64,000 bases of DNA from assembly GCA_034231615.1 (NCBI GenBank), contig CM067307.1, positions 7,433,013 to 7,497,012 on the forward strand, given 5' to 3'. The notes below the pieces were generated by a model, which was not told where the DNA came from, ran no database searches, and worked only from the letters and a program-made list of their open reading frames with translations. This stretch comes from Meghimatium bilineatum. Taxonomy: Eukaryota > Mollusca > Gastropoda > Stylommatophora > Philomycidae. Positions 7,837 through 29,439 of this stretch are shown here, one piece after another. Position numbers and translations under genes: made by a program. How positions within the stretch are numbered: the stretch's first letter is position 1; each line of letters starts with the position of its first letter.

Positions 7837-7956
7837 TCAAACAGTTTGTTCTCCGATTCGCTCCGAGGAAGATTGCTGTTTCTTAAAGACTTTTTTCTCC
7901 CTGGCGCTGTGTTTTGTCAACCACCCAGTCTGACGCTGTTCTGTTTCTAGGAAACC
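7837..7956 (-). CDS. Acyltransferase exon 12: C-terminus and stop
   Basis: This exon encodes the final 39 residues, from [14 protein letters not shown] to SERIGEQTV, and a TGA at 7839-7837. It follows TTGTTGCAG and is in phase 0 with exon 11. The tail is basic and not conserved in a way I recognise. Confidence 0.85.
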   Translation of the reverse strand, partial: GFLETEQRQTGWLTKHSAREKKVFKKQQSSSERIGEQTV

Positions 7957-10900
7957 CTGCAACAATAATGTATTCTATATTCAAACATATCATAGTACGC
8001 TAGTCAAACATCACAATAAGCTAGTCAAACATATCACAGTCCTACAGGAATGTAATTTTCATAAGTATAAACTGTCCATGTTTTGTTGGGCCCAAAAGGT
8101 GCTGTCCATAATTTCTGTCAACAATTTTTGACCATACTTCTACCCATTTGTCAACAAGTCAAAAATTGAGGTTACGAAATAAATATATTTTTTATTTCAC
8201 ATGTAACATTTTTTTTTTCAAATTCAAACAATTTAATTGTTGTATAATAACAGTGTTGCTGAGATCACCTTTTGTCAACAGCATAGTTCCTCAAGAAAGT
8301 CACAGCAAAGTTCCTCAAGAAAGTCTTAACACTTTATTGACCAATTTCGACTATCATTGAATTTCCAGTATATGTTCTTATTGAACGAATTCAACGATAG
8401 TCAATGTGCTATTATGCTTCATTAATATTGCAATTGCAGCGATAATATTACTAATAATAGCTCAGCTGGGATAATACATCATTCCAACATGGCTGCACCA
8501 ATGAAATATGTTCTTTCAACTTTAGATAGGAGTTAATTATTTAATAAATCTCAATTTTAGACATGTAAATTTACATAATATTAATGTCAAATTAATAATA
8601 ATAATCAAATTAATGTCAAACCATGCCCAGCATTATAATAATGATGATTTAGTTCTTTAAAAAACTCTGGGCCTTTCAAATGCATTCATAACTGCCAAAG
8701 ATGGATGTGTCAGGCCATTGGCGCAAATAAAATGGTGACATAATGTATTTCCATTCTCTGGACTACATCCTGCTGGAAATCATGTAGGACCATTGTCCTC
8801 TACAAGAAAGATACAGCGGGAGTTTGAGAATGAACGCTGAAGAAGAAGAAATGCATGCATAAAAAAGTAAAAGTTTTTTACAATACTTTCCCTCAACAGA
8901 TATGCATGATAACCAGGGGCCCTGTACAAGTATAAACATAAGAAAGTACACATGCATGTAAATAAATGCTTCAATCCCAGTTGTCGGGCCTAATTTCGCA
9001 CTTTTTAATAAATCTACACCAACCCAAAATTTTAAGTAATTTTTTAAGTGTTGTCACGCACAATTAGGCTACTTTTAGATTTTGTAATTTTAAAGGGTTT
9101 TAATTTGTGTGTATTTTATGAAAGCATTTGGAAGGATGAGTGTAAACGCTCCAAAAATTAATTGTTTGCATTCAGTGTGTCCAGGCATTCTGATGTGGAA
9201 ACTAATAAACAGTAGAGTTACTGAAGACAGTAAAGTCTAAGCAGAAAACAAGGAGCTCAATGAATGATGAGAGGATTTTGATATTCTACTAAATTTTCAG
9301 TGGGCGGATATCAATTGCGGGCAGAGGGTTTGCTATGTTAGGCCTACATTAAACAGAAGTTAAAAGTGTTTATATTATTTGCCCCTCCTCCCTTCTGGCT
9401 TCATCAACACATGGGCACAGGGAAATAAATGAATTTGAAAATTGTTCACTCTCTTCTTTCACTACTAACCAGTATCCATCCAGCTACTTTTTTGGATACT
9501 TTGAAAAAAGTCAGTTCGGGTGTTTGGGCTACTTTTAGACAGCCGAGCCATGGGTTTTGTCAGAACTATCTGGCAACAATGGGTCCAGTTAATTTCTGCT
9601 GACACAATGACTGCCGTATCAATGCTGAAAAAGCCTTCTACTGTAAAGATACAGTACGATTTTTACAGAAGCGAGAAGTGGCCCCTGATACAAAGTTATG
9701 CACACAGGGACATGCTACGACCTCAATGTACTACGCTGAATGAAGGATTCACTGGAAGTGTACTGTTAGAAAACACTAGCAGCGGATTGAGCTGAAGTCC
9801 AACACATCTGTTTTTCAAGAGAATCCCAGCCGTAAAGACTTCCGATTTTGCTTTAGCTGGACTTACCAGATGACTTCTGCCAAGTGGTGCAAACGTGAGC
9901 TGCAGATGAGAAAGAATACAGTGGTGGAGTGGAATTCGTATATCCATGAGCTGTGTGCATGTACAGCCTTCTACAACTACCACAATGTCACATCAGAGGA
10001 GAGGACAAGATCACAGAAATTGACAAGAACCTATTCTCCAAGCGAAAGGCAAACACGGGCAGAGTTTTACAACAGCAGTGGGTCTTTGGAAGTCTGTGTC
10101 GTGAGACAAGGGAGGTGTTCCTGCTGCCGGTGGAGAACAGACATGCCGACACCCTACTGAGGGCAATAGTGGAGAATGTGGAGCCTGGATTCATTATATT
10201 CTCGGACTGTTGGAGAGACTATAAATGACTGAGATCGAGAGAGCCGGTTTTGCGCACCTGACAGTTAACCACAGGTACAACTTTGTCGACCCAGCTACTG
10301 GGGCGGGGGCCCACACGTAAACAGTGGAACGAATGTGGGGAAGTGGCCGTGCACAAGTATATAAAAAAACAAAGTTCAAAAGCATATAGAAAGAAACCAA
10401 CATTCCCTCACCTTAATTGCTGATCCAACACCATTCAAGTCAAGCAGGAAAGTATCATGTCCATATATGGAGTTCAATTCATAGAATGTTACTTGCCCAT
10501 TTCCTGATTGGATAAATCACAATTATTAGATGATATAACAAGTCACATGAAGCTATAATAGTTAATAATTAAGAGTGCAGAAATCATAAGACTAGATAAA
10601 TCAGATTTTTAAAAATCATGAGACTTGGTAAATCAAGAATGAAAAAGACTGGATAAATCAATATTTAACAAATCAAAAGACTGGATAAATCAATATTTAA
10701 CAAATCAAAAGATTGGATAAATCAAGATTGAACAAACTATAAGATTAGACAAATGAAGATTGAACAAACTAAAAGACTGGATAAATCAAGATTGACAAAC
10801 TATAAGATTAGACAAATGAAGATTGAACAAACTAAAAGACTGGATAAATCAAGATTGACAAACTATAAGATTAGACAAATGAAGATTGAACAAACTAAAA

Positions 10901-13900
10901 GATTGGATACAAGAACAATAATCTTCACAGCAAGCAACACATAAAATTCATAAGAATGAACAGGAAGCAGATCCCTCATAAAAGGACTGCCCAGTTGACC
11001 AAGGAAGATGCCAAATCTCAATGTCTGCCTCAGATTTAAACGGGAAACTACCCTTTACTCTGATCTTCTTATGTACAAGCTTGTGGACTAGTATTACAGT
11101 ATTCTACACTGTCCAGTTTGTTTCTTCTCCCTTCACAATATGGTTAGTGTTTGAAGATAGAGGACAACAGTCCAGCTATGACTAGTGATTCTCCCTTCAC
11201 AATATGGTTAGTGTTTGAAGATAGAGGACAACAGTCCAGCTATGACTAGTGATTCTCCCTTCACAATATGGTTAGTGTTTGAAGATAGAGGACAACAGTT
11301 CAGCTATGACTAGTGATGAACTATGTATGAAAACAACATTTCTTCTTGTACAATTAGCATTAAGAAGGAAGAATTAAATGATTTAACTATCTGGATATGT
11401 CAAAGAATAAGACACCAAAAGCTACAGTTCGAAGACAATATATCAAAGTTATACCTCCTTCCTGAAGCAGTTTGGACAATTCACGCTGCTGCCAGATGGG
11501 AAACAGCATATCAGTCTGTACTCCGATGACCATAGCTGGACACTTCACTCTTGACAGACCCTCCTCAAGTGAGTCGTAACCCTCACCTATGTCGAACATA
11601 TCCATTGCCTGAAAGCAGAATGTAATGTCACTATTCTCCAAGCAATCACAACATAAATATTATGTAACTTGAAACTATAAACAATTCCAATTTTTGCAGA
11701 TAATGTGGCCAACATCTTGTCCACAAGTAAAATCTGGTACCCATTTCCTTAGACTGGATTGACCTAGGTGATTTTAATATTTTCATATTTAAAAATATTT
11801 CAATATTTCCAGTTGAACTGGGAATTGAACATTGGATCACCTGACTAGGAAGCTAGTAAGCTAACCAATGCGCTACCACAGCCACATAGATTATATTTAC
11901 ATAATGTAAACTTATCTGCTCTGTAAGGTTTCTGTATAATGTTGTCTTACTCTGTGAGCTTTTTGGACAGGTTTTCACCTCAACATATTGACATGCATCA
12001 CAATCCTGACAATCTTTTGTGCTAATCAAAATATAGTCATTGAAACTTACCTTGGAAACATACAGATGAGTCATTGAAACTTACCTTGGAAACATACAGA
12101 TGAGTCATTGAAACTTACCTTGGAAATTTACAGATGAGTCATTGAAACTTACCTTGGAAACATACAGATGAGTCATTGAAACTTACCTTGGAAACATACA
12201 GATGAGTCATTGAAACTTACCTTGGAAATGAACAGATGAGTCATGAAACTTACCTTGGAAACATACAGATGAGTCATTGAACCTTACCTTGGAAACATAC
12301 AGATGAGTCATTGAAACTTACCTTGGAAACATACAGATGAGTCATTGAAACTTACCTTGGAAACATACAAATGAGTCGTGAAACTTACCTTGGAAACATA
12401 CAGATGAGTCATTGAAACTTACCATGGAAATTTACAGATGAGTCATTGAAACTTACCTTGGAAACATACAGATGAGTCATTGAAACTTACCTTGGAAATG
12501 TACAGATGAGTCGTGAAACTTACCTTGGAAACATACAGATGAGTCATTGAAACTTACCTTGGAAACATACAGATGAGTCATTGAAACTTACCCTGGAAAC
12601 TTACAGATGAGTCATTGAAACTTACCTTGGAAACATACAGATGAGTCATTGAAACTTACCATGGAAACTTACAGATGAGTCATTGAAACTTACCTTGCAA
12701 ACATACAGATGAGTCATTGAAACTTACCTTGAAAACTTACAGATGAGTCATTGAAACTTACCTTGGAAACATACAGATGAGTCATTGAAACTTACCCTGG
12801 AAACATACAGATGAGTCATTGAAACTTACCCTGGAAACATACAGATGAGTCATTGAAACTTACCTTGGAAACATACAGATGAGTCATTGAAACTTACCTT
12901 GGAAATGTACAGAAGAGAGTTAGGATCATATTTTGTGCTGAAGGTTTCTCCCTGGTGCTCTAGGTAGGATTCTATTAGAAAGGTTGGACAGAGAGATGGT
13001 GGGTCATCGCTGATACGGTCCCTTCCAAATCTTTCATTCCATTCAGGTCCACTACGGTATGTAATGGTTGCAATTTCCCTGGGAATTTTGCATAAAAATA
13101 ACAGTTACAATTAAAGAACCTTTTCATAAATCATATGTGTATGGTTTTAATATTAGATTGGTAATCACAGTTCTTTACAGGACTCCAATATGTGGTGGAT
13201 TAAATTACAGCAGTTTCAAGACTCCAATATGTGGTGGATTAAATTACAGCAGTTTCAAGACTCCAATATGTGGTGGATTAAATTACAGCAGTTTCAAGAC
13301 TCCAATATGTGGTGGATTAAATTACAGCAGCCTCAAGACTCCAATATGTGGTGGATTTTAATTTATTTTATTACAAAAATGTATTTTTGCTGGAAAGTGA
13401 ATTTTCTAACCACCCAGTGCCAGAGCCAGAAAATAATTATCACACTCCGAAGAAAGCCAAGTTTGTATCTATGCACTGCTCCAAGTGTCTTTGCAGCCAA
13501 GATAGAGTTCACTTTGTTCATTCTCTTCCACCAACTGTCTACTGATAGGCAGACCTTTTTTATGGCTCATGGTATGCAAACAAATGTTTACAGTAAAAGG
13601 CTTATCAGTGTATTTGATGTAAAATTTACTACTTAGAAATACAATTTTACATCTAATACATTTTACCATACATTTATTTTCACATATACTTCAACTACTA
13701 ATCCATTTCAGCATGTAACTGAGGATGTTTCTGTTGTGCTCTACTTTACTTCAATCTGATTCTCCTATGCAACATAGATCTATGTAATATAGATGCTTAC
13801 ATACTCTCTTTAAATAAAGTTTTGTTCAATTCCATTTCATTTTTGTGTGTTGGTCATTACCGTGAAAAAGGTTTTGTGGGCAAAACGTTGATTATATTTA

Positions 13901-16900
13901 TTTGTCATATTTGTAAAACTGAATTTTAATATTGTGAATAGAGCTCTCTTTTTAAAAAAAAAATTGTATCATTACATTCAAGGATTTTATACACATATAA
14001 AAAGACACAAAGGTTTAGAAAGATTAATTATGGAGGGAAAGGTTCCAGGAAAGAACAAAAGGCTACAATGGCCACAAAGCATCGATGACCTCCTGAATAT
14101 GACATTAGAAGACCCTGTGGGGCAGTTTGCACAGAACTGAGAGGCTTCCAGAATGAAAGTGAGTACAAGTCTCCAAAGGATATCTGACATAGATAGATAA
14201 TATTCAAGGGTTACAAGACTAATCAGTTTTGGATCAACAGCAAGATAAAAGCAAAGATAACAGAATCATAAATCTACTGACCTTGCTAGTTTCATGCCAA
14301 CTTTCGGGTAGACTTTTCCATAGTAGTGTCCATTGTTCCAGTTAGGGTCACACATAATGCACTTTCTTTGCAAGTACCTCATAGCAATGGAGGAAGGGTG
14401 AGACTGGGCACAAGCTGAGATGCTGACAAGTCTGCCAATAAGGAAATACAATCATTTAGGCAGCTCATAGAACTGATCAAATGCTGCCATAGGCAATTCT
14501 ACATCTGGACCATTTAGAAAGTTATCTATCTATTTATCTATCTATTTATCTATCTATTGGCTAAACCCTTTGTTGCCTTTCAGTATCAAGGATAGAAGAG
14601 TTTTCTGGAGATGGACCTCGTGTGTGATGAGCATATTGAGGAGTTTGTCGCCTCTTTTATTTCCGTGGTCATCATTTTTGTGGTCAGCCTCTAGGTCTGC
14701 CTGCACTGTATTTGTGTAGCATAGCTTGCTGTGGTATGCTGTCTGATCGTAGTCTGCTGATGTGTGCAAACCATTTTATCTGTTGTCTCTTAATTTATTC
14801 CAAGATTGGAGTGATACCGGTTCTTTGTCTAATGTCTTCATTTCTCACTCGGTGCCCATTTGTCTCATCATTCTTTCATCGTATTATTTCCCGCTTAGAC
14901 TTTACTGTCTGCTGAAATTTAATGTAATTTCATTTAAATCCTGAAGCAAGATAACGAATAATTACTATTTACTATCGAGTAGGTGAATTGTGCAGTTCCA
15001 AATCAGAACACAAACAATTTGTCCAGGAAAGTACTCAGATGTCATTCATGAGTGCTTGGTGTTAAGAGTACATCAGAGTTTACACATCCAAGTTTACACT
15101 GTGGTGGCCAACCTTCCTGATTGAATGAATAGGATAGCTATGGTAGTAACAATGCTGGTACCTGGTGGTTAGGGTTTAATGACTGCGGGGAAGGTTGCTC
15201 TGTATTATCATTGATGTATTGTTCTGCACTATTTATTCACTCACTCATTCAGGTAATGTGCGTAGAGCAAATGAAAGAAATGGCCTTGCATCTTACGGTT
15301 TCTAAAGTTTGTGTTAGTTAGTCGTCGGATCACCATCACTGCAAACTGGACACTTCCGATCTCTCCCTGAGTGTATTCAAGTAAGAAACATGAGAATAAA
15401 TTAAAATAATTCTTACAGATGGCGGGAATTGAACCAGGTCTGTTCTAGCAGCACCGAATTGCTTCGCAACACAAGTAAACAGGTTTTCCGTACTTGACAA
15501 ACCACATCCCCAAAAAAAGATGTGATCTCGTCAAGACATTCAACCTGTGTACTCAAGTCACTGAGAACAGACCAATCGAGACAAGGACTATTATAATAAC
15601 AACTAGCATCCAGTACAAGTAGTGAAGTATCCTTAGTAACACAAACATAGAACAGTTATATACAAGGGCCAATAGGCCTTCTTGTAAACATAAATAACAT
15701 AGAGACAGTACAGTGTTGCTTCTAATAATAGCTTATACAAGTAAGCTATTGGCCCTTGTATGTAGCTGTTCTATGTTTGTGTTACTGAGGATACTTTACT
15801 ACTTGTACTGGATGTTAGTTGTTGTTATAATAGTCCTTGTCTCGATTGGTCTGTTCTCAGTGACTTGAGTACACAGGTTGAATATCTTGACGAGATCACA
15901 TCATTTTTTGGGGATGTGGTTGGTCAAGTACGGAAAACCTGTTTACTTGTGTTGCGAAGCAATTCGGTGCTGCTAGAACGGACCTGGTTCAATTCCCGTC
16001 ATCTGTAAGAATTATTCTCCCTAAGTGTATCCGCCATTACACTTCTACTGAAAGTACCAGTCCAATGCTGGTAGTTTATGTTAATTTCCATTTAGCATGA
16101 TTTTGCTTGTCCTTTCATTCTTATAATAACAGGAGTCCACATTATTATTACCAGCATTATTATATTTTTTTTACCTCGGTCTATAATCAGATTTTAGACT
16201 TTGGACACTTTCCAGAAATAAAAATCACCTCCTTAGCTTATTGATGGGCTTATATTTGGAAATATACTGTATCTTATTATTACTTCCAGGCAACAACATA
16301 TTACTAATACAAAATACTCAGAATTAGAATATTCTCACTCTCACCGTCCGACACGATCTGGATAAGTCACAGATGATTGCAAAGACAGCATCCCTCCCAA
16401 TGAGGATCCAACAGCAGCATACAACTGAAATGTAAAAAATTAGGTAAATGATCTCACAGTTGTTAGTGTTAGTTAAATTGATCTCACAGTTGTTAGTGTT
16501 AGTTAAATTGATCTCACAGTTGTTTGTGTTAGTTAAATTGATCTCACAGTTGTTTGTGTTAGTTAAATTGATCTAACAGTTGTTAGTGTTAGTTAAATTT
16601 ATCTCACAGTTGTTAGTGTTAGTTAAATTGATCTCAGAGTTGTTAGTGTTTGTTAAATTGATCTCACAGTTGTTAGTGTTATTTTCACTGGTTTTTTGGG
16701 GGGTTTTCTTTTTATGGTGAGATTTTTTTCTTGTGTTACCGGTATTTGACGATATCCTGTGTTCTTGGTTTTTTTGTTACCAGCAGTAATTTTTTGGGGG
16801 GAATTGTTGTACTCTTTTATAAGTCAATCTCCATACATTGTTAGTGGAAAAATACAAAAATTCTCGGCTTATATGCGGAAATGTACTGTACATTTTACCG

Positions 16901-19900
16901 GTTACATTTATTTAGTCTTTGTGAAATATTTTATTTATTAAACTTACAGCGATGTACTATGCCTCAAAATGTGCAGAAATGAATGCCATTTTTAGAATAT
17001 GTGTCCATTGTCTTGTTTGAAGACCAGAAATATGTAGTACATTAGAGGAAAATTTTGATAAAACATATGCCTAATGACCATAAAATTCAAAAATAAAATA
17101 AATAGTTACAGACTAAGGAACAAGTGACTATCATCTAAAGTTGGCTGTTTTGCAACTAATATATGCATTTTTTCAACTATTTGGAAAGTTTCAAATGTTT
17201 CTTTGTACAAATACAAGTTATGTGATCATTTGAATGCTTGTTGACATGCAGTTTTCTTTATGAAATGTTTTCACTTTTTTTCTAACCACATGCCAACATG
17301 TCAGCTTACAACTGTATTCGCTCCCAAACTAATATCACAAAATGGCCAACAAAAGAAACGAGGGAAGACCTGTAGAGTTATTGTGATTGGATGAAATAAT
17401 ACAGTACTTTTATAGTCTCTTTTGGTGAAGACTTTCTCAGCAACATCTTCTAATGTCTCCCATCATCTTTTAGGAAGTGGAGTTGTAATATGGAAACTAT
17501 TTACTCGTCTTTTCACAAGACGAGTCGAAGACTAAGAGTTTAAACTAGGAATATGAAAGTGCTGATGTTATTTTAAATGTTCATTCCCACACTCCCGCTG
17601 GATCTCTCTTGTACAGAACAATGGTCCTAGACTTCCAGCAGGATGTAGTCTAGAGAATGAAGGTGCATTGTGTTGCTGTTTTCTTTGAGCCAATGGCCTA
17701 ACACATCTAGCTTCGGTGGTAAATTACTGACTTTGTTTTGGTGACTAACTAGACTATAGATTGATGAATGACTAGATCACAGAAGATAAAGAATATGATC
17801 ATTTCTCACCTTCTTGATTCCAAGATGGTCCAGCAATAAGAATATAGCATTTGTCATATCTTCCACACTAATTATTGGGAATGTTGTGGCATAAGGCTGC
17901 AGAAGAATCAATGAAAACAGTAAGATGTGTTGTTACATATTCATACCAAGCATAGTTTGTAACATTCACTTGATGGTGTAACTTTATCACAAAATTAACA
18001 ATCAATATATTCTTGATTTCATGAAGAAAGAACCAATTAAGTAACAAAAAATTATCAACTTACTTCAATTGTGTTGTTGGGACCAGAAAGAGGAACAATG
18101 AATAGCAATGCTTTTATTTACTTCCATGCATGTCGTAATGTCCAATGGAAGCGACTAAGGAGGTTATGGGGTGGAGTTGGCAGTCCCATTTAATATATGG
18201 TAAAAGTGATCTAGAAATCATGCTGAAGTCAGATGTGTCAGGCAAAAGATGCAGATATTACAGCAAAGCTGTAAACCATGACACAATACATTCTGTTCTC
18301 TGGATTACATCCTGCCAATCTGCAGGTGTTTGATAGTGAAAGCAGAAAACGATCAACTTAATTTCAACACAAACGTTGTTCATATTTAAAATTCTATAAG
18401 TTGGTGTGTCATGGCTGAATTCAATAACTATAGCCAGGAATTGGAAGTTAGACTATAGTCAGGAATTGGAAGTTAGACTATAGTCAGGAATTGGAAGTTA
18501 GACTATAGTCAGGAATTGGAAGTTAGACTATAGTCAGGAATTGGAAGTTAGACTATAGTCAGGAATTGGAAGTTAGACTATAGTCAGGAAGTGGAAGATA
18601 GAATATAGTCAGGGAATTTGGAAGATGGACTATAGTCAGAAAATGGAAGGTGGACTATAGTCAGGAAATGGAAGGTGGACTATAGTCAGGAAATGGAAGG
18701 TGAACTATAGTCAAAGAATGGAAGGTGGACTATAGTCACGGAATGGAAGATGGATAGTGAGGAATGTGCTGAAGCTTCCTAACAACTGCATGCTTCAAAT
18801 TGAAATGAAACATCATTGTCGATATTATGACAATCTGGAATTACATATTAATGAGTAGACTAGGCAATGTTCATGTGTTGTCGGGGCCCAATAGGGAAGC
18901 AAAGAAGAGCAACATTGTGACTTGCCATGAATGTTGTAGGAAGCAGCTGAGGAGGTTTTGGGATGTTCTCAACTTGGTGATCGTAAGCACCTTGATGTTC
19001 ATAAGGACATGTGCTCGCACCAGGTGAGTTCAAAAGTGCTAGTAAGCTCTAACAATTACATGGGACGGGGCACACCATCTGAAAAGGTTGAGAACCCCTG
19101 CTCTAGATGGTCAAAGTGATCCAGGAGCCATGCTGAAGTCAGATGTATCAGGCCAAAAGAAGCAGATATTCCAACTCAGCTATAAACCATGACATGCACT
19201 CTGTTCTCCACACTACATCCTGATCTGCAGGAATTTGAGAACAAATGCAGAAGAGAATGTACTGGGCATAGGCAGGATATATAGAGTAGCTTTTTTAATC
19301 AGAGAGCCACAAAAACCATCAGGAGTTTGAGAATGAATGCACAATATGTCATAATAGCCAAATAATAAATAGTACGGTATCTCATTTCATCAAAATATAC
19401 ATTTTTAAATAAACACAAATTAGACACTGTGATCACCATGTTCATCAGACAACTGACATGAATCATTATTTTGACTCATATTGTTAATAAAACTTACCTC
19501 ACCAGTGACAATGTTTATTGATGAAGGCCCCCTGGAATGAAATATGAAACAAATAAACAGATTTGACAAAATTAAAGGTTCATATTTGGTAAAAGAACCT
19601 ACCTTTTTTTCTGCGGAAAGTGAAACGAAATAAATATCATGAGGCAGGCAAATTTGAGTTCTTCATTTTTTTCAGCGATTATTTCCCTTGGCTATAATTA
19701 CCGATCAGTGGGTGAAGGTGGAGGTATTTATTTATGATGGTTGCATGGGTGGCGCTCTCAGTTAGAGTTGCACCACCTGTGTATCAGGCAGCACTCCTCG
19801 CAATTGTAACAGTTGTACTACCTGTTTATCTGTCACTGGTAAGCTCTACAAAATTATGATTATGTTAGCCATTTTGTATCAGTCAACAGGCAGTGAAGTC

Positions 19901-22900
19901 ACACATTTTGTGATCAGCGCAAATTTTATAAAAAGTTGGGCCAGTTTACCAAACATGAACCAAATTGAACTTCCTGACAGGTTAACTTGAAAGATGTGTA
20001 GGGATCATTCATTGTTTAAAACAAATCTTTCGTTATCTTTACTCTAATATAATTACTTGATTTTACGCAGTGATTTAAATACATTGTATTGTTGGTTGAT
20101 TGCTGATCCAACAGTCCATAGACTCATGCTCCTTGCCCTCAATGCCATTGTGTGATTTAAGCATATATTTGTGAGCTGTTATTATTTGTTTGTTAAATAG
20201 GGGATTAAAGCCACTGGTCGAGCCACGATCTTTCAACCTAAGACCGGAATCTATATTTGTGAGCTGTTGTTCTATTCCTATTGTGTTCTATTGATCTGTT
20301 CCCAGATGGAGAAGTATCCTTCTAGTATCTTACAGCGCTGGATATTTCAAAAGCTGATAGTCAACAATGTATTAAGAATGAGTGGACAGCCGAGCCGGCA
20401 CATTAAAAATTTGTATTGCTAGCTTACAGAAAAACTGTGATATTTGAAACTTTTGGCTCAACACATTTTTGGCAAATGTTGTGTTCCAGTTTGTTTTCCC
20501 TGGTGAATGATTGCTTTCTAATACATATAGAGGGCAGCACCTAATTTTAGACTGAACCAGTGCATAAGTAAACCAGCTATTCATTGTCAACAAACTAGGT
20601 ATAGCTGCAGTAAAACTATGGCCAGACAGGTGAAATTTAAAACACATCATCAAAGATGGGTGTGCTGGGCCATTGATGCAAATAAAATAGTGACACAATT
20701 CTTTTCCGTTCTCTGGACTACATCCTGCTGAAAATCTAGTAGGACCATTGTCCTGCTACTGCTACAAGAGAGATCCAGTAGGAGTTTGAGAATGAATGCT
20801 GAAGAAGAAAAAAAATATGAGAATGAAGTTTTACACAATACTGGAAGCACACATGAAAAAACCAGACACAACACACACACAACACAAATTAATGATACAA
20901 TTTTACGCATATTTGTATGCGTATTCCTCAGTGACTCTCAAAATTTAATTGTGATATGAATATTTTCATTTTTGCCTGATCAACCAAAATCAATGTACAT
21001 CCCATGACAATTCCTTCTAGTTATAAATATGATACTTTGGTTTGCCTTGATATTCATGACTGAACCTGACATATTTATTGCCCACCTGCCAGTTTAATCA
21101 CCTGTCTGGTGACGATTCAGTGAACCCAAACACACTGGACAAACATTATTAGGATTTACTTCAGAATTGCACAACTGAAAATCCTTACAGCAATTGTTTA
21201 AACTTTCACTGAATTATTTAGTGCTAGTGCAGCATTTCAAACAAAAGTCTGCGAAATTCATTTTCTCTGTAGATTACTGGGTGCACATTATATGATTATA
21301 CAGGTTATATTTTTATATCTATATTTTTTTGCTATTGTTAATTTAGTATCCCCATTACTTTCAAATACTGCTTATAGTGCCAAACTTGTTAGCAATTTCA
21401 ACAAATTTCCAACATAAAATAGTAATGCACCATTAACAATAGCAAAATTTACTTTGATTGATAAATATAGGTACAGTATAAGAACAAGTGCCTACATTCC
21501 AATTTTATAGGTGTCAACTAATACGCATTTTCTGTATTAGTATAGAAACGGATTAATATTTCCTGACAGAAGTATCGACAAAAATACACATTTATTTAAA
21601 TATACAGAATTAAATTTTTAGGGACGATTTTCTTCTCTGAAGATTTTTATGAATATAAAGGTCTCAACCAATAAAATTGTTTTTTCATTACATATAATAA
21701 GAGACTACATGGGAATTCCCTTTTTACTAAAAATAATAATCAATAAAAGGTAGTACATGCACTGTTCCTACTAAAAATAGCACTTTTGTCTATTTTTTGT
21801 AACTTCTGAGGAAATCTTGCTTGTGACATGTCTATTTTATGGTTATTTTTAGACTTGGAGGAAACTTCATTGGGAAACCCGTGGAAAAAAATACACCAAT
21901 TTCCGGGTCACACGAGTTGATCACATTTTAATTAGATTTGTGAGTGTCCTTGACTTTTATGGCATATCCAAACCAAAGCTAAAAATTGTTTTAAAAACTC
22001 ACCATGCAGTTCTGTGAATGTTGCTATTCCTATTTGAAAGCAACAACAGTGATTTGACTTGCTTGAACATGTTGAGGTAAGTGTATTTCATTATACTCAT
22101 TTATGTAGTCTTATCAAATATGTCTAATATTTTGATAAAGTAGTACTCTCGGTGTCGGTAATGTAGGCCTATTTACTAGTAATCACATATTTTAATAAAT
22201 ACGGTTGATTTCTATTATAATTAAGCTTAAAGCCTAGCTCTTACATTTTTGAACATATTTTACCAAAATTATTAATATTGATTTCTAATTATAGATGTTT
22301 ATATAGTATAAACAAATGTGAAAGTATAAACAAATGTGAAACAGACCTTAATCAATAATATAAATATAAGAAAAAGACAATCTTCTTTTTTTTTGGCCAC
22401 TTCATGAGACAGGCAGGTTTGGAGAACATAATAACAGCAGGCAAAATTGAAGGCAACAGAGACAGAGGGCGACATGTGAGAAATATTAGACAGTTTGACA
22501 ACCTAGCACGGCAGGGACACAACAACGATCTTGATACATAATACTGTGGACAGAGAACTGTGGAAAGCCATGACGCCTACACCAGCCGGCATGGCACCTG
22601 ATGATGATGATATAGTATAATTCATGTCAAAACATGTTTGCGAGTTAGAAAGCTGCATTCTTTCGTAGGTCGTCATCATAACGACACAGACAAATAACAT
22701 AATTAAATAGACATTTAATATAATTGTATTTATGTGCGATGAACTTACAGATAATACTTGGCAGAAATACAGATTTAGCCTTCAAAAAGTTGACATCTAT
22801 CAGCTTTTGTGATGTTACTGTAATCACGTCACTAGTAAACCGTGTTGTCAAAATGGTTAATTTAATCTGAGATTAAAAAGTGGATGAATCAATGCTGCTG

Positions 22901-24070
22901 GATGAATCAATCTGCACACTCACACTGACTACTGAGACCCCCTCCCCTTTTCAGGGTCATCAAGAGGGGGGGGGGCTCTGTGTGTAGTAAGCAGATCAAT
23001 GCATTCGGCGGAAGATTGATGCATTTAGTGACTGTAGCACGTGTCTTTATCGATATGTCGATTTGTTAAATAATGTAGGATTAGTTCTATTTGAGTTTAT
23101 GATTTGTTTCATCAAAATGTAGGCACGTCTTCTTTTATTGAACTAAATATAGATTTACTTGTTATTGGAATTATACATTGACTGTATCTTCTCTGCAAGA
23201 CTTTTATATTTTATACTAATTTCAGACTGTGTGGAACTGTTTTTACAGGTCTTCACCTCAAAAGGTTTTCATATCAATGGGTTGTCAGATGTGTAGCCTC
23301 AGTGTATGTCGACACGTTGTCTGACGTGGCAGTCTCTGTGTATGTTTCAGTGTATGTTGAGAGGTAGTCAGACGTGCAGCCTCAGTGTATATTGACAGGT
23401 TGTCTGATGTGCAGCCTCAGTGTATGTTGACAGGTTGTTAGATGTGCAGCCTAGTGTATATCGACAGGTTGTCAGACGTACAGTATAAGTGAACGGACAT
23501 TAGAACTGAAGAGTGTCCTACATTTAAAATAAATCACACCCCACACACACACACACACAAAAACAAATGCACTCACATAGAAACATATATTTATATGCAT
23601 AAAAAAGACTTTTGTGTCCAGAACTTACGATGTTCCATAGCAGCTTCCAAGATTATTTGGACAAATGACAAAGAACTTGCTACTGTCGACAGCACAACCA
23701 GGACCAATGAATTTCTCCCACCAGCCAGGCTTCATATTGTCCTAGAAAATACAACATCGGAAGACTTACCTTTAAAAAAACCTATAAACAGACATCACTT
23801 TAATTTTGGTAATGTAATAGTTAAACTTGACATTTGATAGTCAATCTTGACAATGTTAAATTGACTTTGACACTTTACAGTCAATCTTGACAGTTAATGT
23901 TCGCACTGTTAAGTCAATCTTAACACTTAACAGATAACACTACTCAACATCAAAATTGTACTAGTAATGCAAAAAGTTGATCTTAACTAATTAACAAAAA
24001 TGATATTAGAAAGTTTTCATTCGTTCTAGTTTTTTTTAGATATATGAAACTTTTGTTTTCTTTAATTACC

Positions 24071-24103
<33 letters not shown>

Positions 24104-27100
24104 TACCCCGGTACACACACATATATATATATATACATATATACATATATATATATAGACCAAATTATTGATTCTGATCAACTGATCATTAGAAATGTAA
24201 CTAGAAGGATCTAACAATGTTAATTAACTCAGTGTTGACACTTAAGAATTAATCTCTAAACTGCTATGTCAATATTGACACAGTCAAGTCAATATCTGTA
24301 AAGGTCTTGTCAATTTTGTCACTTAACAATTAATCTTGACACTGTTAATTCCAACAACCCGGTAGACATGTTTAAGTCAATATTGCCATTTTAAATATTA
24401 TTGGCACTATTTATTCTATTCTAAATGCTGTATCCCTTGTTTGCCATGCTGCGTCAAGGGTAGAAGAGTTCTCTGGAGATTACCTTCCTGTGTGCTGTTT
24501 GTAAGCTTGTTCCTGTAGCTTCATTGATTTCTGTGATCCATCTTTTACATGGTCTGCCTCTGGCTTTATAGCCGTTATATCTATGTGTCATGACCATCTG
24601 TGGCATGCTGTCTGTTGGCAGTCTGAAAGCATGTGAAAACCACTTGATCTGTTGTCTTTTGATGTGTTCCAATACTGGTATTGTTTTGGTTATCTGTCTG
24701 ATGTTATCATTTCTAATTCTATCTCTAAAGGACACTCTGAGTATTCTTCGTAGAGTAAGTATGTTGAAAGAGATGACATCTGACTTGTGTGTATGTGACG
24801 TTCAGAGAGTAGGCTTGCTGAACACTTAATGGTGATCTATTAATCTACTTATCTATTTGTATATTTTCCTTCACTGAAGGCTTCAGTGTTGATAAGGCAA
24901 GGCTTCAGTGTTGATAAGGCAAGGCTTCAGTGTTGATAAGGCAAGGCTTCAGTGTTGATAAGGCAAGGCTTCAGTGTTGATAAGGCAAGGCTTCAGTGTT
25001 GATAAGGCAAGGCTTCAGTGTTGATAAGGCAAGGCTTCAGTGTTGATAAGGCAAGGCTTCAGTGTTGATAAGGCAAGGCTTCAGTGTTGATAAGGCAAGG
25101 CTTCAGTGTTGATAAGGCAAGGCTTCAGTGTTGATAAGGCAAGGCTTCAGTGTTGATAAGGCAAGGCTTCAGTGTTGATAAGGCAAGGCTTCAGTGTTGA
25201 TAAGGCAAGGCTTCAGTGTTGATAAGGCAAGGCTTCAGTGTTGATAAGGCAAGGCTTCAGTGTTGATAAGGCAAGGCTTCAGTGTTGATAAGGCAAGGCT
25301 TCAGTGTTGATAAGGCAAGGCTTCAGTGTTGATAAGGCAAGGCTTCAGTGTTGATAAGGCAAGGCTTCAGTGTTGATAAGGCAAGGCTTCAGTGTTGATA
25401 AGGCAAGGCTTCAGTGTTGATAAGGCAAGGCTTCAGTGTTGATAAGGCAAGGCTTCAGTGTTGATAAGGCAAGGCTTCAGAGTTACTTTGACCCTCTATG
25501 GGATGTGACTTACCAACGTGCTATCCTAAAACTAAGTTTTCAACTAACTAAACAAATAACAAACTAAGTAGTCAGTTAACTAAACAAATAACAAACTAAG
25601 TAGTCAGTTAACTAAACAAATAATAAACTAAGTAATCCACTAACTAAACAAATAAACTAAGCAATCAACTAACTAAACAAACTAAGTAGTCAACTAACTA
25701 AACAAATAACAAAATAAGTAGTCCATCAACTAAACAAATAAGAAACATAGTAGTCAGCTAACTAAACAAATAACAAACTAACATTAAGAAATAAAATCAG
25801 TAACAAAGATTACTCACAGCTGAGCTCCGTGCATGAGAGCTGGCAGATAGACCAGCCAGGACAATGACAGCATTACTTGCATCTTCATTCAATGTGCCCC
25901 ATGTCTCATAAGCAACCTCCAGCTGGGGCAAAACACCACCATTAAGTTGTAGAGAAAATGGCTGCTTGTGTGTGTACAATTTGTAACCTTTTGTGATATT
26001 GTCATATTCAGGTTCTGGGCCTGAGTCCTTCCTGCAGCAAGAAAATGTATACAGAAAATTATATTTTTGTGTTCAAGAATTTTCTGTATTTAAAATATTT
26101 TTTTCTTGCATCAAGATTGTGGTACCTGATGACTTTAGCATTTGAATGTGCTGTTTATGACTACATATATTAAATATATGGAGGCACTAGTTGAAAATAG
26201 ATCCTTAACACTGTTCTTTAGAATTCTTGGAGTTAGGTGGCAGGACAAGGTCACTAACACTGATGTATGGCAGGACAAAGTCACTAACACTGATGTATGG
26301 CAGGACAAAGTCACTAACACTGATGTATGGCAGGACAAAGTCACTAACACTGATGTATGGCAAGACAAAGTCACTAACACTGATGTATGGCAAAACAAAG
26401 TCACTAACACTGATGTATGGTAGGACAAAGTCACTAACACTAATGTATGGCAGGACAAAGTAACTAACACTGATGTATGGCAGGACAAAGTCACTAACAC
26501 TGATGTAGTGGAAAGAACAAGCAATACCGCAGTATTTTCTATACTCAGTCTGTTCAGACTCAGATGGTTGGGAAACATTTGAACGATGGAATATGGCATA
26601 ATACTAAAAGATTTACTTTATGGAAAATTAGTCTGGGAAAATATGTGTGTCAACTTCTAGTTCAGTACAAGGACATATGCAAATGTGATATGCACAATAC
26701 AGACACTGATACAGAATCATGGGAATAGAATGTCATGGATCGTGTTGCATGGTTGGAAAAAAATCAGGAATGGTATAAAAGCAAAGGAGAAAATGATAGC
26801 ATATAGTTCAATGGCTGCATGTCTGATAAGACACTCTTCAGCACTCGAGTACAGTGGGTCTGTGATTCCTTGTACATACTGTGGAAGACTATTTGTGCCT
26901 CAGATTGGTCTTGTGAGTCACATCCATCATCATCATTCCCTGATCTGCACATCCATCATCATCACCCCCTGATCTGCAAATACGTTTTGCATCTGTTTAA
27001 CCATTCCCTGATCTGCACATGCAAGAAAATATTTACAGGGAACATGATGTGACAGGCATGGAAATCTGAGAGCTAGGAATCTAGATGACCTGGAAGACCC

Positions 27101-28822
27101 AGTGACCAATGGGTAAATATATAAACTGTCCTGGAAAGACTGAGGAGTAAAGTGGAATCAACCAGGAAGAAAACAGCCGATAGAATCATTCATGCTTTCT
27201 TAGCCAAATCCTGATGTCCTTGAAAGACAGGAGTAAAGTGGAATCAACCAGGAAGAAAACAGCTGATAGAATCATTCATGCTTTCTTAGCCAAATCCTCA
27301 TGTTCACTTCTGTTTCCTGAAATTACTGTATTCAATTAGAAAGTTGCAGAGAGGTGGTATGTGTATCTGTGTAATAAAGGCTGCATTCCCTTGCTGTCGC
27401 CACGCAAATAGTAATTACTAAAAACGTAATTTATGTGGCTAGAACAAGACAAAAAAATAACCAACAATACTTACACTCTGGACAAACATGGAAAGTTTGA
27501 CTCCAATCCTTTAAATGCTCGGTGTTGTGGTGGTACTTCCCCAATATGTGAGTTTACTGTTGGAGTTTCCACCTAGCATAAACAAATTGGCTGTTTGAAT
27601 AACATCTCAACATGAATAGAAGAGTGGCTCTAAAACTTAGTCTTCTAATTCTATGATATGCTGATGACACAGTCTTCTGAGAAGAATATGAAAAGGAGCT
27701 ACACAGACAATAGATCAGGTCGCCCGTGTGTTGCCGGGGCCCGAAAGGGGAGCAAAGAATAGCAACACTGTTTACCTTCCATGCATGTCATAAAAGGTGA
27801 CTAAAAGGATGGAGTTGGCTGTCCCATCTCATATAGGGTCAGTGACCCAAAGCCATGCTGAAGTCGGATGTTTCAGGCCGAAAGGCGCAGATATCACAGC
27901 AATGATGTAAACCATGACACAACGCATTCCGTTCTCCGGACTACATCGTGCTAATTTGCAGGAGTTTGAGAACGAACGTAGAAGAAGAAGAAGAATAGAT
28001 CAAGTAGACAAATCAAGTAGAGAGTATAGACTAGATATTAACAATCACAATCAAAAGCAGAGTTCTCTGAAAATTGCTTTTTGTGTGCTTCATATATATT
28101 TGTCTTTGTTGACTCTTATTTCGGTAAACCATCGTTTGCAAGGTCTGCCCCTGGCTTTGTATCCATCATGTCTGTAAATTAATACTTTTTGAGGGTCACT
28201 GTCTGATGGTAGCCTGAAAGCATGCAAAAACCACTTAATCTGTTGTATTTTGATGTAATCCAGGATTGGCATTGTGTTTGTTAGTCTTCTGATGTTTTCG
28301 CTCTTGATTTTGTCTCTTAATGTTACTCCGAGGATTCAACATAGACGAGTCATTTCTGTTGTAACAATATATGCATGCTACAGATAAATTGCTACTAACC
28401 TGTGTCAATGGTCTTCCAGTGTTACAGGACTGCTGGAATAAGAAGCCATGTTTAGTAGAGAATGTCCTGCAGCTCTTCATATTCATCTTGGGTGTATTTC
28501 TTGTGAACACTGTAAACTCTCTTCTTGGAGACTTACCCAAAAATATTGAAACAACAGGACAATCAAATAAAGCTGATGATCTTGAAGAATAAGCCTTCTG
28601 CGCTAACGCAGAAGTTGGTAAAATAAACATTTCTGACGAGTCTGGATGAGCAACTGACGCCACAAAATTTCTATGTTGATGTTGTCTTTTACGACTACAA
28701 ATGTGTGCTGCTACATTAGTCAATGTTCGATAGCTGTAGTTTAAATTTAAGACACACTTTCGGGTCAAAGTCACCATCAAAGAGACAGTCCCACATGTTG
28801 ATGAGGCTGCTTGGATCATCAT
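7837..28822 (-). CDS. MetX/Cys2-family O-acyltransferase (serine or homoserine O-acetyltransferase-like), 12 exons, complete
   Basis: Twelve exons join in frame into 1746 nt (581 residues plus stop). The family transfers an acyl group from acyl-CoA to the hydroxyl of homoserine or serine. Seen in the protein: a basic, Ser-rich N-terminus (1-141) that looks like a mitochondrial presequence; [10 protein letters not shown] (213-222); [10 protein letters not shown] (235-244); [10 protein letters not shown] (251-260); the nucleophile elbow GSSLGG with Ser331; Asp493 in QTDMLFP; and His527 in YGHDTFLLD. These are the MetX-type triad. Homoserine enzymes usually read like ALTG before the conserved His, whereas LSASSHA and the mitochondrial leader recall the fungal Cys2/cysA serine O-acetyltransferases (from family knowledge, not a search). 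Substrate is therefore inferred as serine, without proof. All introns are GT..AG. No residue of the core appears missing. Introns are heavily invaded by repeats. A minus-strand AATAAA at 7612-7607 could end the transcript. Confidence 0.93.
8695..8853 (+). mobile_element. SINE family B copy
   Basis: It contains GATGTGTCAGGCCATTGGCG, CATTCTCTGGACTACATCCT, TAGGACCATTGTCC, GGGAGTTTGAGAATGAACGC and a GAAGAAGAAG tail. Intron 11 between 7957 and 9500 otherwise shows only AT-rich DNA. Confidence 0.8.
9520..10390 (+). pseudogene. Merlin/ISXO2-like DDE transposase relic in intron 11
   Basis: Across three frames the sequence reads [20 protein letters not shown], then [64 protein letters not shown] and TVERMW. 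This is the order of the ISXO2/IS1016-like (Merlin) transposase: helix-turn part, E-x-D with the first Asp, the G-x-x-R-E-x strand, S-D-x-W-R-x-Y with the second Asp, and the N-x-x-x-F-V-D-P and T-x-x-x-E-x-x-W blocks. Frameshifts near 9800 and 10010 and a stop after DYK show it is dead. It lies antisense to the host gene, ending about 20 bp from the exon 11 donor. Confidence 0.85.
10412..10503 (-). CDS. Acyltransferase exon 11: catalytic His
   Basis: This 92-nt exon encodes [20 protein letters not shown] and [10 protein letters not shown]. His527 in YGHDTFLLD is the triad base and GHD is invariant in the family. The acceptor is CCAATCAG and the donor is GTGAGG. The donor lies about 20 bp from the end of the Merlin-like relic in intron 11. 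Confidence 0.96.
10503..10920 (+). repeat. Tandem array on the acceptor flank of exon 11
   Basis: Degenerate units of about 31 bp around GACTGGATAAATCA run from about 10580. They become three exact 63-bp units at 10740-10920, which read in frame as a 21-residue repeat starting [11 protein letters not shown]. The 14-mer GATTGGATAAATCA occurs both in the array (10714) and abutting the splice acceptor (10506), so the array seems to grow out of the acceptor region. Confidence 0.85.
11127..11318 (+). repeat. 64-bp tandem repeat, 3 copies (intron 10)
   Basis: Three nearly identical 64-bp units starting CTCCCTTCACAATATGG and ending CTATGACTAGTGATT. It lies about 135 bp from the exon 10 donor. Confidence 0.95.
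11455..11608 (-). CDS. Acyltransferase exon 10: catalytic Asp
   Basis: This 154-nt exon encodes [18 protein letters not shown] and [18 protein letters not shown]. Asp493 in TDMLFP is the expected acid of the triad. The acceptor is TGCTTTCAG. The donor is GTATAA, weaker than the others, and the exon ends one base into a Gly codon. Confidence 0.94.
11795..11886 (-). mobile_element. tRNA-derived SINE head (intron 9)
   Basis: On the minus strand GGTAGCGCATTGGTTAGC (A-box-like) and ATGTTCAATTCCCAG (B-box-like) are spaced like a tRNA. The plus-strand element at 40463 shares CCTAGT..CCAATGTT.GATT. It is a decayed SINE head rather than a tRNA gene. Confidence 0.5.
12042..12905 (-). repeat. 26-copy 34-bp array of the exon 9 splice-donor junction (intron 9)
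   Basis: Twenty-six tandem units of 34 bp (33 in a few) run through two thirds of intron 9. On the minus strand each unit holds TTTCCAAG|GTAAGTTTC or a close variant. The unit nearest the exon is the authentic donor of exon 9. About 21 bp of each unit copy the end of exon 9 (CTGTACATTTCCAAG in the exon, same in the unit near 12500, CTGTATGTTTCCAAG in most) and the remainder copies the first intron bases. Confidence 0.97.
12898..13078 (-). CDS. Acyltransferase exon 9
   Basis: This 181-nt exon encodes [34 protein letters not shown] and NSLLYISK, all conserved in the family. Homology fixes the true donor at 12898|12897, because LLYISK must join AMDMFD of exon 10. The last 21 nt of the exon and the first bases of the intron are the source unit of the 26-copy array that follows. 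Confidence 0.96.
13181..13358 (+). repeat. 39-bp tandem repeat, 4.5 copies (intron 8)
   Basis: Units of 39 bp starting GACTCCAATATGTGGTGG. They lie about 100 bp upstream (minus sense) of the exon 9 acceptor. Open frames over this stretch are made by the repeat and are not genes. Confidence 0.95.
13960..14175 (+). pseudogene. Non-LTR retrotransposon C-terminal relic (intron 8)
   Basis: A frame reads [26 protein letters not shown] and TLEDP, the tail that follows the reverse transcriptase in RTE-like elements. The element at 58635-58850 (minus) is the same family, with MERRILEG. Confidence 0.6.
14282..14431 (-). CDS. Acyltransferase exon 8
   Basis: This 150-nt exon encodes [34 protein letters not shown] and GMKLAR. 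These match the lid-region blocks of the family (the S-x-x-S-x-A helix, D-P-x-W-N-x-G-x-Y and the G-x-x-L-A-R turn). It enters and leaves in phase 2. The donor is GTCAGT. Confidence 0.95.
14525..14905 (-). pseudogene. RTE-like 3' end with TATC-type tail (intron 7)
   Basis: On the minus strand the sequence ends in a run of GATA-type 4-mers (14523-14560), preceded by a degraded C-terminal coding part. It is related to the tails at 30924-31805 and 32525-33145 (shared AGAAGAGTTTTCTGGA-like and GTCTGCC blocks). Confidence 0.6.
15405..16016. repeat. 271-bp inverted repeat with 70-bp loop (foldback element, intron 7)
   Basis: Arms 15405-15675 and 15746-16016 are near-perfect reverse complements of equal length. 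The outer end of each arm carries a tRNA B-box-like GGTTCAATTCCCGTC in the outward direction. No coding sequence is present. In the pre-mRNA it would form one very long hairpin. Confidence 0.93.
16345..16424 (-). CDS. Acyltransferase exon 7: nucleophile elbow
   Basis: This 80-nt exon encodes [20 protein letters not shown] and YPDRVGR. The G-x-S-x-G motif is GSSLG, giving Ser331 as the catalytic nucleophile. The acceptor has a good pyrimidine stretch ending in TTTCAG and the donor is GTGAGA. A tandem array carrying CTAAC motifs begins within about 15 nt of the acceptor (see the findings). Confidence 0.96.
16437..16685 (-). repeat. 30-bp tandem array with branch-point-like motifs, 8 copies (intron 6)
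   Basis: Eight 30-bp units; on the minus strand each holds TTAACTAACACTAACAACTG or a variant, that is two CTAAC motifs. The nearest copies lie about 40 nt before the exon 7 acceptor, a usual branch-point distance. The rest of intron 6 up to 17590 holds nothing recognisable. Confidence 0.93.
17590..17712 (-). mobile_element. SINE family B copy
   Basis: Reverse-complement copy with CTCCCGCTGGATCTCTCTTG, CAGCAGGATGTAGTC and GCCAATGGCCTAACACATC. It lies in intron 6. Confidence 0.75.
17810..17896 (-). CDS. Acyltransferase exon 6
   Basis: This 87-nt, phase 0-0 exon encodes residues 295-323, with FPIISVEDM and [10 protein letters not shown]. In the family this helix and the LDHLGI turn lie just before the nucleophile strand. 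The acceptor is TTCTGCAG and the donor is GTGAGA. Confidence 0.95.
18071..18350 (+). mobile_element. SINE family A copy (intron 5)
   Basis: Degraded copy with TTCCATGCATGTCGTAATG, GCGACTAAGGAGG, AAACCATGACACAATACATT, CTGGATTACATCCTGCC and a decayed GCAGAAAA tail. Confidence 0.7.
18426..18755 (+). repeat. 25-bp minisatellite, about 13 units (intron 5)
   Basis: Seven nearly exact 25-bp units (GACTATAGTCAGGAATTGGA at their core) are followed by about six diverged ones with GGAAGGTGGACTATAGTCA. GACTATAGTC is itself a palindrome. Confidence 0.95.
18871..19255 (+). mobile_element. SINE family A copy interrupted by a hAT-like fragment (intron 5)
   Basis: The two halves (TGTTGTCGGGGCCCAATAGG to GGAGGTTTTGGGATG, and TCAAAGTGATCCAGGAGCCA to the GCAGAAGAG tail) flank about 130 bp that is foreign to the family. 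Confidence 0.65.
18978..19104 (-). mobile_element. hAT-like terminal fragment
   Basis: The minus strand at 19100-19081 reads CAGGGGTTCTCAACCTTTTC, the typical end of hAT elements and their MITEs. The opposite end is not recognisable. Confidence 0.5.
19498..19531 (-). CDS. Acyltransferase exon 5: 34-nt micro-exon
   Basis: This exon is only 34 nt and encodes [11 protein letters not shown] after completing a split Ser codon. It continues the family block G-[ST]-x-GPSS exactly where exon 4 breaks off. The acceptor is ATTCCAG and the donor is GTAAGTTT. Its phase (2 in, 0 out) is needed for the frame of the whole gene. Confidence 0.93.
20088..20165 (-). mobile_element. LINE 3' end fragment (exon 5 side of the gene, intron 4 region)
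   Basis: The minus strand contains CACACAATGGCATTG and CTGTTGGATCAGCAA followed by an AACCAAC end, matching 48866-48925. The rest of 19560-20640 holds only the inverse copy of the 5150-5240 repeat. Confidence 0.6.
20650..20815 (+). mobile_element. SINE family B copy (intron 4)
   Basis: It has GATGGGTGTGCTGGGCCATT, TCTCTGGACTACATCCTGCT, GGACCATTGTCCTGCTACTG and GGAGTTTGAGAATGAATGCT with a GAAGAAGAAA tail. From 20950 to 22390 intron 4 shows no gene or repeat that I recognise. Confidence 0.8.
22400..22615 (+). pseudogene. RTE-like C-terminal relic with GAT tail (intron 4)
   Basis: The frame reads [20 protein letters not shown] and then a GNRDRGR block, the common F-G-H-x-M-R..G-x-x-R-G-R tail of RTE-type elements. 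It ends in a GATGATGATGATA tail. The rest of 22620-23280 is empty apart from a C/G-run hairpin near 22940-22975. Confidence 0.7.
23283..23480 (+). repeat. 35-bp tandem repeat, about 5.5 diverged copies (intron 4)
   Basis: Units with GTGCAGCCTCAGTGTAT and GACAGGTTGTCAGA. The copies differ, so the array is old. It lies about 150 bp from the exon 4 donor. Confidence 0.85.
23629..23741 (-). CDS. Acyltransferase exon 4: [10 protein letters not shown] block
   Basis: This 113-nt exon (residues 246-282 plus two bases) encodes [12 protein letters not shown] and [16 protein letters not shown], both hallmark blocks of MetX-type acyltransferases. The acceptor is TTTTCTAG and the donor is GTAAGT. Confidence 0.96.
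24068..24160. repeat. (AT)n/(AC)n microsatellite
   Basis: Alternating AT runs with an ACACAC stretch in the middle. It lies in intron 3. Confidence 0.95.
24415..24770 (-). pseudogene. RTE-like C-terminal fragment (intron 3)
   Basis: The minus frame reads [20 protein letters not shown], then [34 protein letters not shown] and a stop. It is nearly the same as the tail of the element at 30924-31805, 5' truncated. Confidence 0.85.
24877..25480 (+). repeat. 22-bp minisatellite, 27 identical units (intron 3)
   Basis: Twenty-seven units of 22 bp (core GGCTTCAGTGTTGATAAGG) without visible change from unit to unit. Such uniformity points to a recent expansion. Confidence 0.98.
25540..25790 (+). repeat. 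32-bp diverged array beside the exon 3 donor
   Basis: Units of about 32 bp with AACTAAACAAATAACAAACT and AAGTAGTCA. It ends roughly 30 bp from the exon 3 donor. Confidence 0.85.
25818..26031 (-). CDS. Acyltransferase exon 3: start of the catalytic fold
   Basis: This 214-nt exon (residues 174-245) follows TGCAG and ends before GTGAGT. It carries [18 protein letters not shown] and [18 protein letters not shown], the first conserved blocks of the MetX family, covering the first beta strands and the oxyanion-region loop. It begins by completing a split Val codon from exon 2 and ends in phase 0. Confidence 0.95.
26241..26510 (+). repeat. 30-bp minisatellite, 9 units (intron 2)
   Basis: Nine units of exactly 30 bp (CAGGACAAAGTCACTAACAC..). 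Since 30 is divisible by 3, open frames appear on both strands; they are products of the repeat. Confidence 0.98.
26640..26965 (+). pseudogene. Non-LTR retrotransposon C-terminal relic with zinc-finger-like end (intron 2)
   Basis: Frames read [35 protein letters not shown] and [20 protein letters not shown]. The C-x2-C..IGL-x-SH end is typical of one RTE-like group. The copy at 63125-63555 shares it. Frameshifts break it. Confidence 0.75.
27475..27572 (-). CDS. Acyltransferase exon 2
   Basis: This 98-nt exon starts in phase 0 after GCTAG and ends two bases into a codon before GTAAGTA. It encodes VETPTVN...SNFPCLSRV. The FPCL stretch sits where fungal Cys2-type enzymes begin their conserved region. 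The exon is found by frame, splice borders and its fit to flanking exons. Confidence 0.85.
27640..28075 (+). pseudogene. Reverse transcriptase relic split by a SINE (intron 1)
   Basis: Before the SINE the frame reads [17 protein letters not shown], the catalytic Y-A-D-D box of a reverse transcriptase. After it the frame continues [19 protein letters not shown]. The family A SINE sits between. Confidence 0.75.
27721..27993 (+). mobile_element. SINE family A copy with target-site duplication (intron 1)
   Basis: A full-length-looking copy from CGCCCGTGTGTTGCCGGGGC to the GAAGAAGAAGAAG tail. Flanks AATAGATCAGGT (27709-27720) and AATAGATCAAGT (27994-28005) are a 12-bp duplication with one change. 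This defines the borders of the family at about 273 bp. Confidence 0.9.
28085..28345 (-). pseudogene. RTE-like C-terminal fragment (intron 1, beside exon 1)
   Basis: The minus frame reads [20 protein letters not shown] and [16 protein letters not shown]. It is the same family as 30924-31805. It ends about 55 bp from the exon 1 donor. Confidence 0.8.
28400..28822 (-). CDS. Acyltransferase exon 1: start codon and presequence
   Basis: This exon encodes residues 1-141 and ends in phase 0 at CAG followed by GTTAGT. I chose the first ATG of an ATG-ATG pair at 28822; the frame is open upstream to a stop at 28876-28874 but has no earlier ATG. An acceptor-like TTATGTTCCAG just before 28894 suggests that about 70 nt of 5' UTR precede the ATG in this exon and that a further leader exon exists upstream. 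The peptide is rich in Ser, Thr, Arg, Lys and His, with very few acidic residues at the start, as expected of a matrix-targeting leader. It has no recognisable domain. Confidence 0.8.
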
Positions 28823-29215: not shown

Positions 29216-29439
29216 TTTATATAGGCCTATAGCAAAAAATTAGAGAAAAAAATAAACATTTCCCCTCATTGAGAAAAAATATGGTAATTTGTACCATAAG
29301 CCCATCTACTTTTATGGATATCATTCTTCTTCTTCTGCGTTCGCTCTCTTGTAACCACATTGAATAAATCTTGTGATTTCCGTCTGGGAGTGTGAAGTAC
29401 ATTGTACTGCACGTTCCAAAGTTGAACTGTGTTATTTAC

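Follow-up and report, generated by a model that had tools for sequence, protein, structure and literature searches.

In a stretch of 64,000 nucleotides from the slug Meghimatium bilineatum (assembly GCA_034231615.1, contig CM067307.1, positions 7,433,013 to 7,497,012; the whole stretch is called the window below) we found an array of tandemly repeated 5' splice sites, or donors, in intron 9 of a gene for a MetX-type serine/homoserine O-acyltransferase. The array is real. It offers 26 nearly equal donors in a row, and only the first of them keeps the reading frame of the protein. We regard it as likely that a minisatellite was seeded across the splice junction and grew by turnover, with the first donor being used and the array being tolerated. 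Exons and introns are numbered after our coding model, which counts coding exons only, and a slash within a motif marks the splice site.

The donor array lies at 12035-12917 on the minus strand, where Tandem Repeats Finder reported a period of 34 bp, 26.1 copies and a 93% match, and where a pattern search found 26 GTAAG donors (12897, 12863 and so on down to 12050, minus strand) with a spacing of 33-34 nt. Both results confirm, with some corrections, the array claimed in a preliminary description of this DNA. The 26 tandem copies of that description stand as 26 donors, but the array spans the genuine exon donor, i.e. it starts at the real donor of exon 9 (AAG/GTAAGT, 12892..12900, minus strand, intron start at 12897), and once this first donor is set aside there are 25 copies. 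The array begins in exon 9, within its last 20 nt, and occupies two thirds of intron 9 (11609..12897, minus strand), at its 5' end; as had been stated, the intron is mostly array, since 863 of its 1289 nt (67%) belong to it when the intron is taken from the coding model. On the minus strand the end of exon 9 reads ...CTTCTGTACATTTCCAAG and the start of intron 9 reads GTAAGTTTCAATGACTCAT, and the unit CTGTATGTTTCCAAG/GTAAGTTTCAATGACTCAT is repeated head to tail after the exon. GTAAG is present in 26/26 donors and GTAAGT in 25/26, so that every unit of the array is donor-like; 20 donors are AAG/GTAAGT (the genuine site included), three are AGG/GTAAGT, two are ATG/GTAAGT and one is AAG/GTAAGG. 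On its minus strand the window holds 22 occurrences of AGGTAAGT, only two of them outside the donor array, and this concentration (20/22) means that the array is not due to chance. The copy number is that of the assembly and of one sequence.

Regarding the structure of the unit, comparison with the exon supports the proposal that it duplicates the exon 9/intron 9 border. The simplest parsing takes 15 nt from the exon and 19 nt from the intron, which gives 34 nt. Under this parsing the copies show 0-3 differences from the exon end over the 15 exon nt, and the copy at 12490 equals the exon 9 end exactly. The exon-derived part had been given before as 21 bp with one to three differences; over 21 nt we counted 2-5, two of them common to all 25 copies, and the lower range of 0-3 holds only for 15 nt, which makes the 15 + 19 parsing the simpler one. 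The hexamer TCTGTA is common to exon 9 and the unit at the joint, and it could have steered the initial duplication. Among the 25 complete units 26/850 cells were off the consensus. This variation is not confined to the bases flanking the donor, as was first described: it is commonest at a site that reads TATG, TAAG, TAAA or TACA, and three units are short by one base (a single-base deletion). The 25 complete units fall into 12 types with no simple block pattern, and a higher-order repetition is weak, the best offset being 7 units (8/18 identical).

The host gene is intact. Its coding span (7837..28822, minus strand) comprises 12 coding exons and 581 aa, is open from the first Met to the stop, and shows GT..AG ends at 11/11 introns. 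The family is of the MetX type (NCBIfam NF001209, 364 bits vs a cut-off of 331); TIGR01392, which is also MetX, stayed under its cut-off (338 vs 500). The nearest solved structure is 3vvl, a homoserine O-acetyltransferase, and these matches do not settle the substrate. A query made of exon pieces hit animal proteins, and among the matches listed the closest protein was that of Arion vulgaris (91% identity), followed by those of the land snails Bradybaena and Candidula (86%). Exon 8 was mapped at 14282..14431, exon 9 at 12898..13078 and exon 10 at 11455..11608, all on the minus strand. Exon 9 has 181 nt and ends in phase 0 with ...LLYISK, whereas exon 10 has 154 nt, which is not a multiple of 3, and starts with AMDMFD after the acceptor ...CTGCTTTCAG of intron 9. 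The intron between exons 8 and 9 measures 1203 nt and intron 9 measures 1289 nt, thus long introns flank exon 9 on both sides. By a text pattern, the protein junction LLYISK/AMDMF, or a near variant of it, is uninterrupted in 107/120 homologues (120 matches listed of 5190). Among the 13 homologues lacking the pattern, ten have no DPNS match, two continue with a conservative change and one (P0087, from Branchiostoma belcheri) diverges. P0087 leaves the family directly after LLYISK, i.e. at the end of exon 9, possibly because of a gene-model error or of another splice form.

Each of the 25 later donors was joined to exon 10 by a script and the product was translated. All of them (25/25) ran into a premature stop and only the first donor keeps the frame, in agreement with the earlier statement that later donors meet a stop. 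With the second donor the stop falls inside the frame-shifted exon 10 (product of 479 residues), whereas the remaining 24 donors lead into the TGA of the array (product of 475 residues). These stops sit 223 to 1048 nt upstream of the last exon junction, and therefore, under the usual 50-nt rule for nonsense-mediated decay, transcripts that use a later donor would be targets of decay. They would also lose the part encoded after exon 9, which we take to hold the catalytic Asp and His of the MetX family.

The donors hardly differ in strength. Calculated pairing energies with the U1 5' end were -10.6 kcal/mol for the genuine donor and 19 copies, -10.0 for four copies and -9.1 for two, and this range of -9.1 to -10.6 over the 26 donors justifies calling them near-equivalent 5' splice sites. 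The genuine exon 9 donor is the second strongest of the 11 of the gene, the other ten ranging from -5.7 to -10.7 kcal/mol. We also considered the exposure of the first donor in the RNA as the selector and rejected it, because the predicted unpaired probability is low for all 26 donors, with the first near the bottom of the range. Near-equal pairing and low openness together mean that the donor sequence itself does not single out the first site.

The array, the intact gene, the near-equal donors and the stop behind every later donor can be read from the DNA, and from them we infer the steps of splicing. The array would have been seeded when some 34 bp across the border of exon 9 and intron 9 (15 exonic and 19 intronic nt) were duplicated in tandem, and ordinary repeat turnover would have expanded it to about 26 copies. 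Exon 9 would be recognised through exon definition, which favours the donor that lies closest, across the exon, to the 3' splice site; the first donor would thus be chosen in nearly all transcripts. The few transcripts spliced at the second or third donor would be cleared by nonsense-mediated decay, and the array would be tolerated rather than selected. Use of the first donor is expected from exon definition, exon 9 being an exon of 181 nt between long introns, and we presume here that molluscs follow the human rule. In human data the upstream one of two equal donors is favoured when the flanking introns are long, and exon-defined human minigenes in which an identical CAG/guaagu donor was present twice, at a distance of 52 nt, used the upstream copy exclusively (PMC9225289).

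The repeat landscape of the window fits such an origin. Tandem Repeats Finder reported 41 arrays of period at least 10, which make up 15.4% of the bases, and 20 of these arrays are in the gene span. With random placement of the 20 founding units in the gene span, the number expected across a splice junction, before selection, is 0.74, and we observed 1; therefore, among so many arrays, a seed across a splice junction is unsurprising. The other 40/41 arrays have no AGGTAAGT, AGGTRAGT or MAGGTRAG in their Tandem Repeats Finder consensus on either strand, and two of them (28941-29223 and 43592-43663) have GTRAGT in it. An array in intron 3 (24877-25484) rivals the donor array in copy number, with 27.6 copies of a 22-bp unit that are 99% perfect and without a donor motif. 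The genome of Arion vulgaris is reported to consist of 75% repeats, chiefly transposable elements (PMC9392753).

Nevertheless, several points weigh against a tolerated minisatellite with use of the first donor. The main ground for doubt is the intron-proximity rule (Reed and Maniatis, reported in PMC9225289), which points in the opposite direction for intron-defined splicing and would favour the last donor, destroying the protein. Even among human donor pairs of equal strength taken overall, the upstream donor is preferred in just 60% of the events (PMC9225289). In the slug RNA, a better exposure of the first donor was not found, its predicted unpaired probability being 0.003 vs 0.003-0.064. 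Finally, the arrays of the gene span cluster at intron ends, with 10/20 within 150 nt (3.9 expected, P = 0.002) and 4/20 within 40 nt (1.1 expected, P = 0.02); both counts include the donor array, and both thresholds were picked after the fact. Their placement is perhaps not wholly neutral.

In the preliminary description, a strict choice of the first site or regulation by a decoy binding U1 was said to be implied. We do not think that special regulation of the first site or a decoy is implied, given exon definition, the 41 arrays of the window and the absence of extra conservation in the donor core. A decoy, in which U1 small nuclear ribonucleoproteins bound at the 25 downstream donors would modulate the splicing of exon 9, the retention of the intron or decay, or else block early polyadenylation, is an unlikely explanation, although it has points in its favour. 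All 26 donors pair well with U1, the weakest (-9.1) still beating six of the gene's ten other donors, and every leak leads to a premature stop, as a decay switch would require. Moreover, longer arrays in the human gene ABCA7 are associated with a lower expression and with more frequent skipping of the following exon (PMC5954066), but the discussion in that paper proposes other factors and does not name U1. Selection on the donors was not supported by a test of the columns over the 25 complete units: the GTAAGT columns hold a variant in just 1/150 cells, but 13/34 six-column windows, GTAAGT included, are equally low in distinct variants (P = 0.35), so GTAAGT is no better conserved than the remaining unit. 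The first ten columns of the unit were likewise not specially conserved (P = 0.27). As for polyadenylation, the single AATAAA/ATTAAA hexamer of intron 9 (11778) is downstream of the array.

A role in recursive or self-correcting splicing, with the units acting as zero-length exons or with retained units being excised later as a GT..AG mini-intron, seems to us quite improbable. In most units the final AG adjoins the GTAAGT of the next one, and a branch-like CTCAT motif has its A 16 nt before the AG end; by geometry, a GT and an AG thus bound any retained run that has this AG in its last unit. However, the AG before the donor is lost in 5/25 copies, and 20/25 copies end in AAG, whereas 11/11 real acceptors of the gene end in CAG or TAG. 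With a score model built from just these 11 acceptors, the median unit reached -0.1 vs 3.6 for the real ones, a value also reached by 27% of 1002 other intronic AGs; on the other hand, the best unit scored 5.0 and 2/11 real acceptors (-2.2 and -2.5) were below the typical unit. Nor did the AG/GT motif, in its donor half, exceed its surroundings in conservation within the array (13/34 windows, P = 0.35). Drosophila ratchet points, which are ultraconserved acceptor/donor motifs with a cryptic exon in mostly long introns (PMC8605326), resemble the slug units in that the acceptor adjoins an AG/GTAAGT-like donor, but the latter mostly have AAG as acceptor and lie in an intron of 1.3 kb. Elsewhere, introns have arisen from tandem AGGT repeats, and in the model of Rogers introns are gained through tandem AGGT duplication, as in ATP2A1 and the 24-bp repeats of fission yeast (PMC4974935). 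There too a short duplicated segment with AG/GT supplies repeated GT and AG ends, but the new intron comes from exon sequence, whereas in the slug the duplication fell on a donor already in use and lengthened an intron. One could go further and see in the array a self-correcting buffer, a speculation to which we give slightly less credit still: as most units run from GT to AG with a branch-like CTCAT, a retained run ending in AG would be a mini-intron, its excision would bring back the exact junction of exons 9 and 10, 26 rival donors would thus be cheap, and splicing might proceed stepwise along the array.

Long tandem arrays are often mis-sized in assemblies, but that mis-assembled reads created this array or its copy number is just as hard to believe, since it has 12 unit types without a simple block pattern, with a single-base deletion in three units, and continues smoothly into the coding exon 9 and the rest of intron 9, although the copy number may still err.

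Arrays of this sort had been thought undescribed. Actually, donor-bearing arrays are already known in two human genes, in the minisatellite of IFI6 (also G1P3 or 6-16) and in the variable number tandem repeat (VNTR) of ABCA7 intron 18, and the slug array joins them by its anatomy. The IFI6 minisatellite has 26 copies of 12 nt and starts near the end of exon 2. Its 12-nt unit would preserve the frame, unlike the 34-nt unit of the slug, which breaks it, so later IFI6 donors can yield protein isoforms. Two downstream repeat units of IFI6 are reported to serve as donors (PMC4526556).

The ABCA7 VNTR has a 25-bp unit and 23.7 copies in the reference, and its first GT is the donor of exon 18 (PMC5954066). 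Both it and the slug array are intronic minisatellites that start at an exon donor, with a donor GT in a unit that shifts the frame. According to the same source, the donor of the second ABCA7 unit is used at 2 +/- 1%, out of frame and independently of array length, while skipping of the next exon increases with the length (PMC5954066). There are also differences. In ABCA7 the donor GT is given as the first two bases of an array described as intronic, whereas the slug unit has 15 exon nt and duplicates the entire donor from -3 to +6. Furthermore, the ABCA7 VNTR is C-rich and has measured effects on RNA.

Other features of the window deserve mention. In intron 6 an array (16440-16681, minus strand) consists of 8.1 copies of a 30-bp unit with TTAACTAACACTAACAAC. 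Of the 13 branch-point-like CTAA[CT] motifs that it holds, the last is at its edge. The array stops 15 nt before the intron ends at exon 7; the density of CTAA[CT] is 10.8/kb in intron 6 and 0 to 8.4/kb in the other ten introns. This is possibly a branch-point array, a mirror of the donor array. Periods of 54, 34, 88 and 162 bp are combined in a composite array that covers roughly 2 kb at 58848-60853. An open stretch at 30968-31807 on the minus strand matches a reverse transcriptase (RVT_1, E 1e-9), whereas Pfam gave no match for two shorter stretches (24457-24801 and 28093-28335) that resemble it by eye. The window has no known RNA families at the Rfam gathering scores and no tRNAs.

Taken purely as a sequence feature, the array is accounted for by the growth of a minisatellite in a genome rich in repeats. 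It represents a natural experiment in donor choice, with 26 near-equal consecutive sites and a protein kept by the first alone, and it sets a probable case from a mollusc beside those of human genes, where the length of the ABCA7 array is linked to the risk of Alzheimer's disease. The donor array could serve for tests of exon definition and U1 occupancy in vivo.
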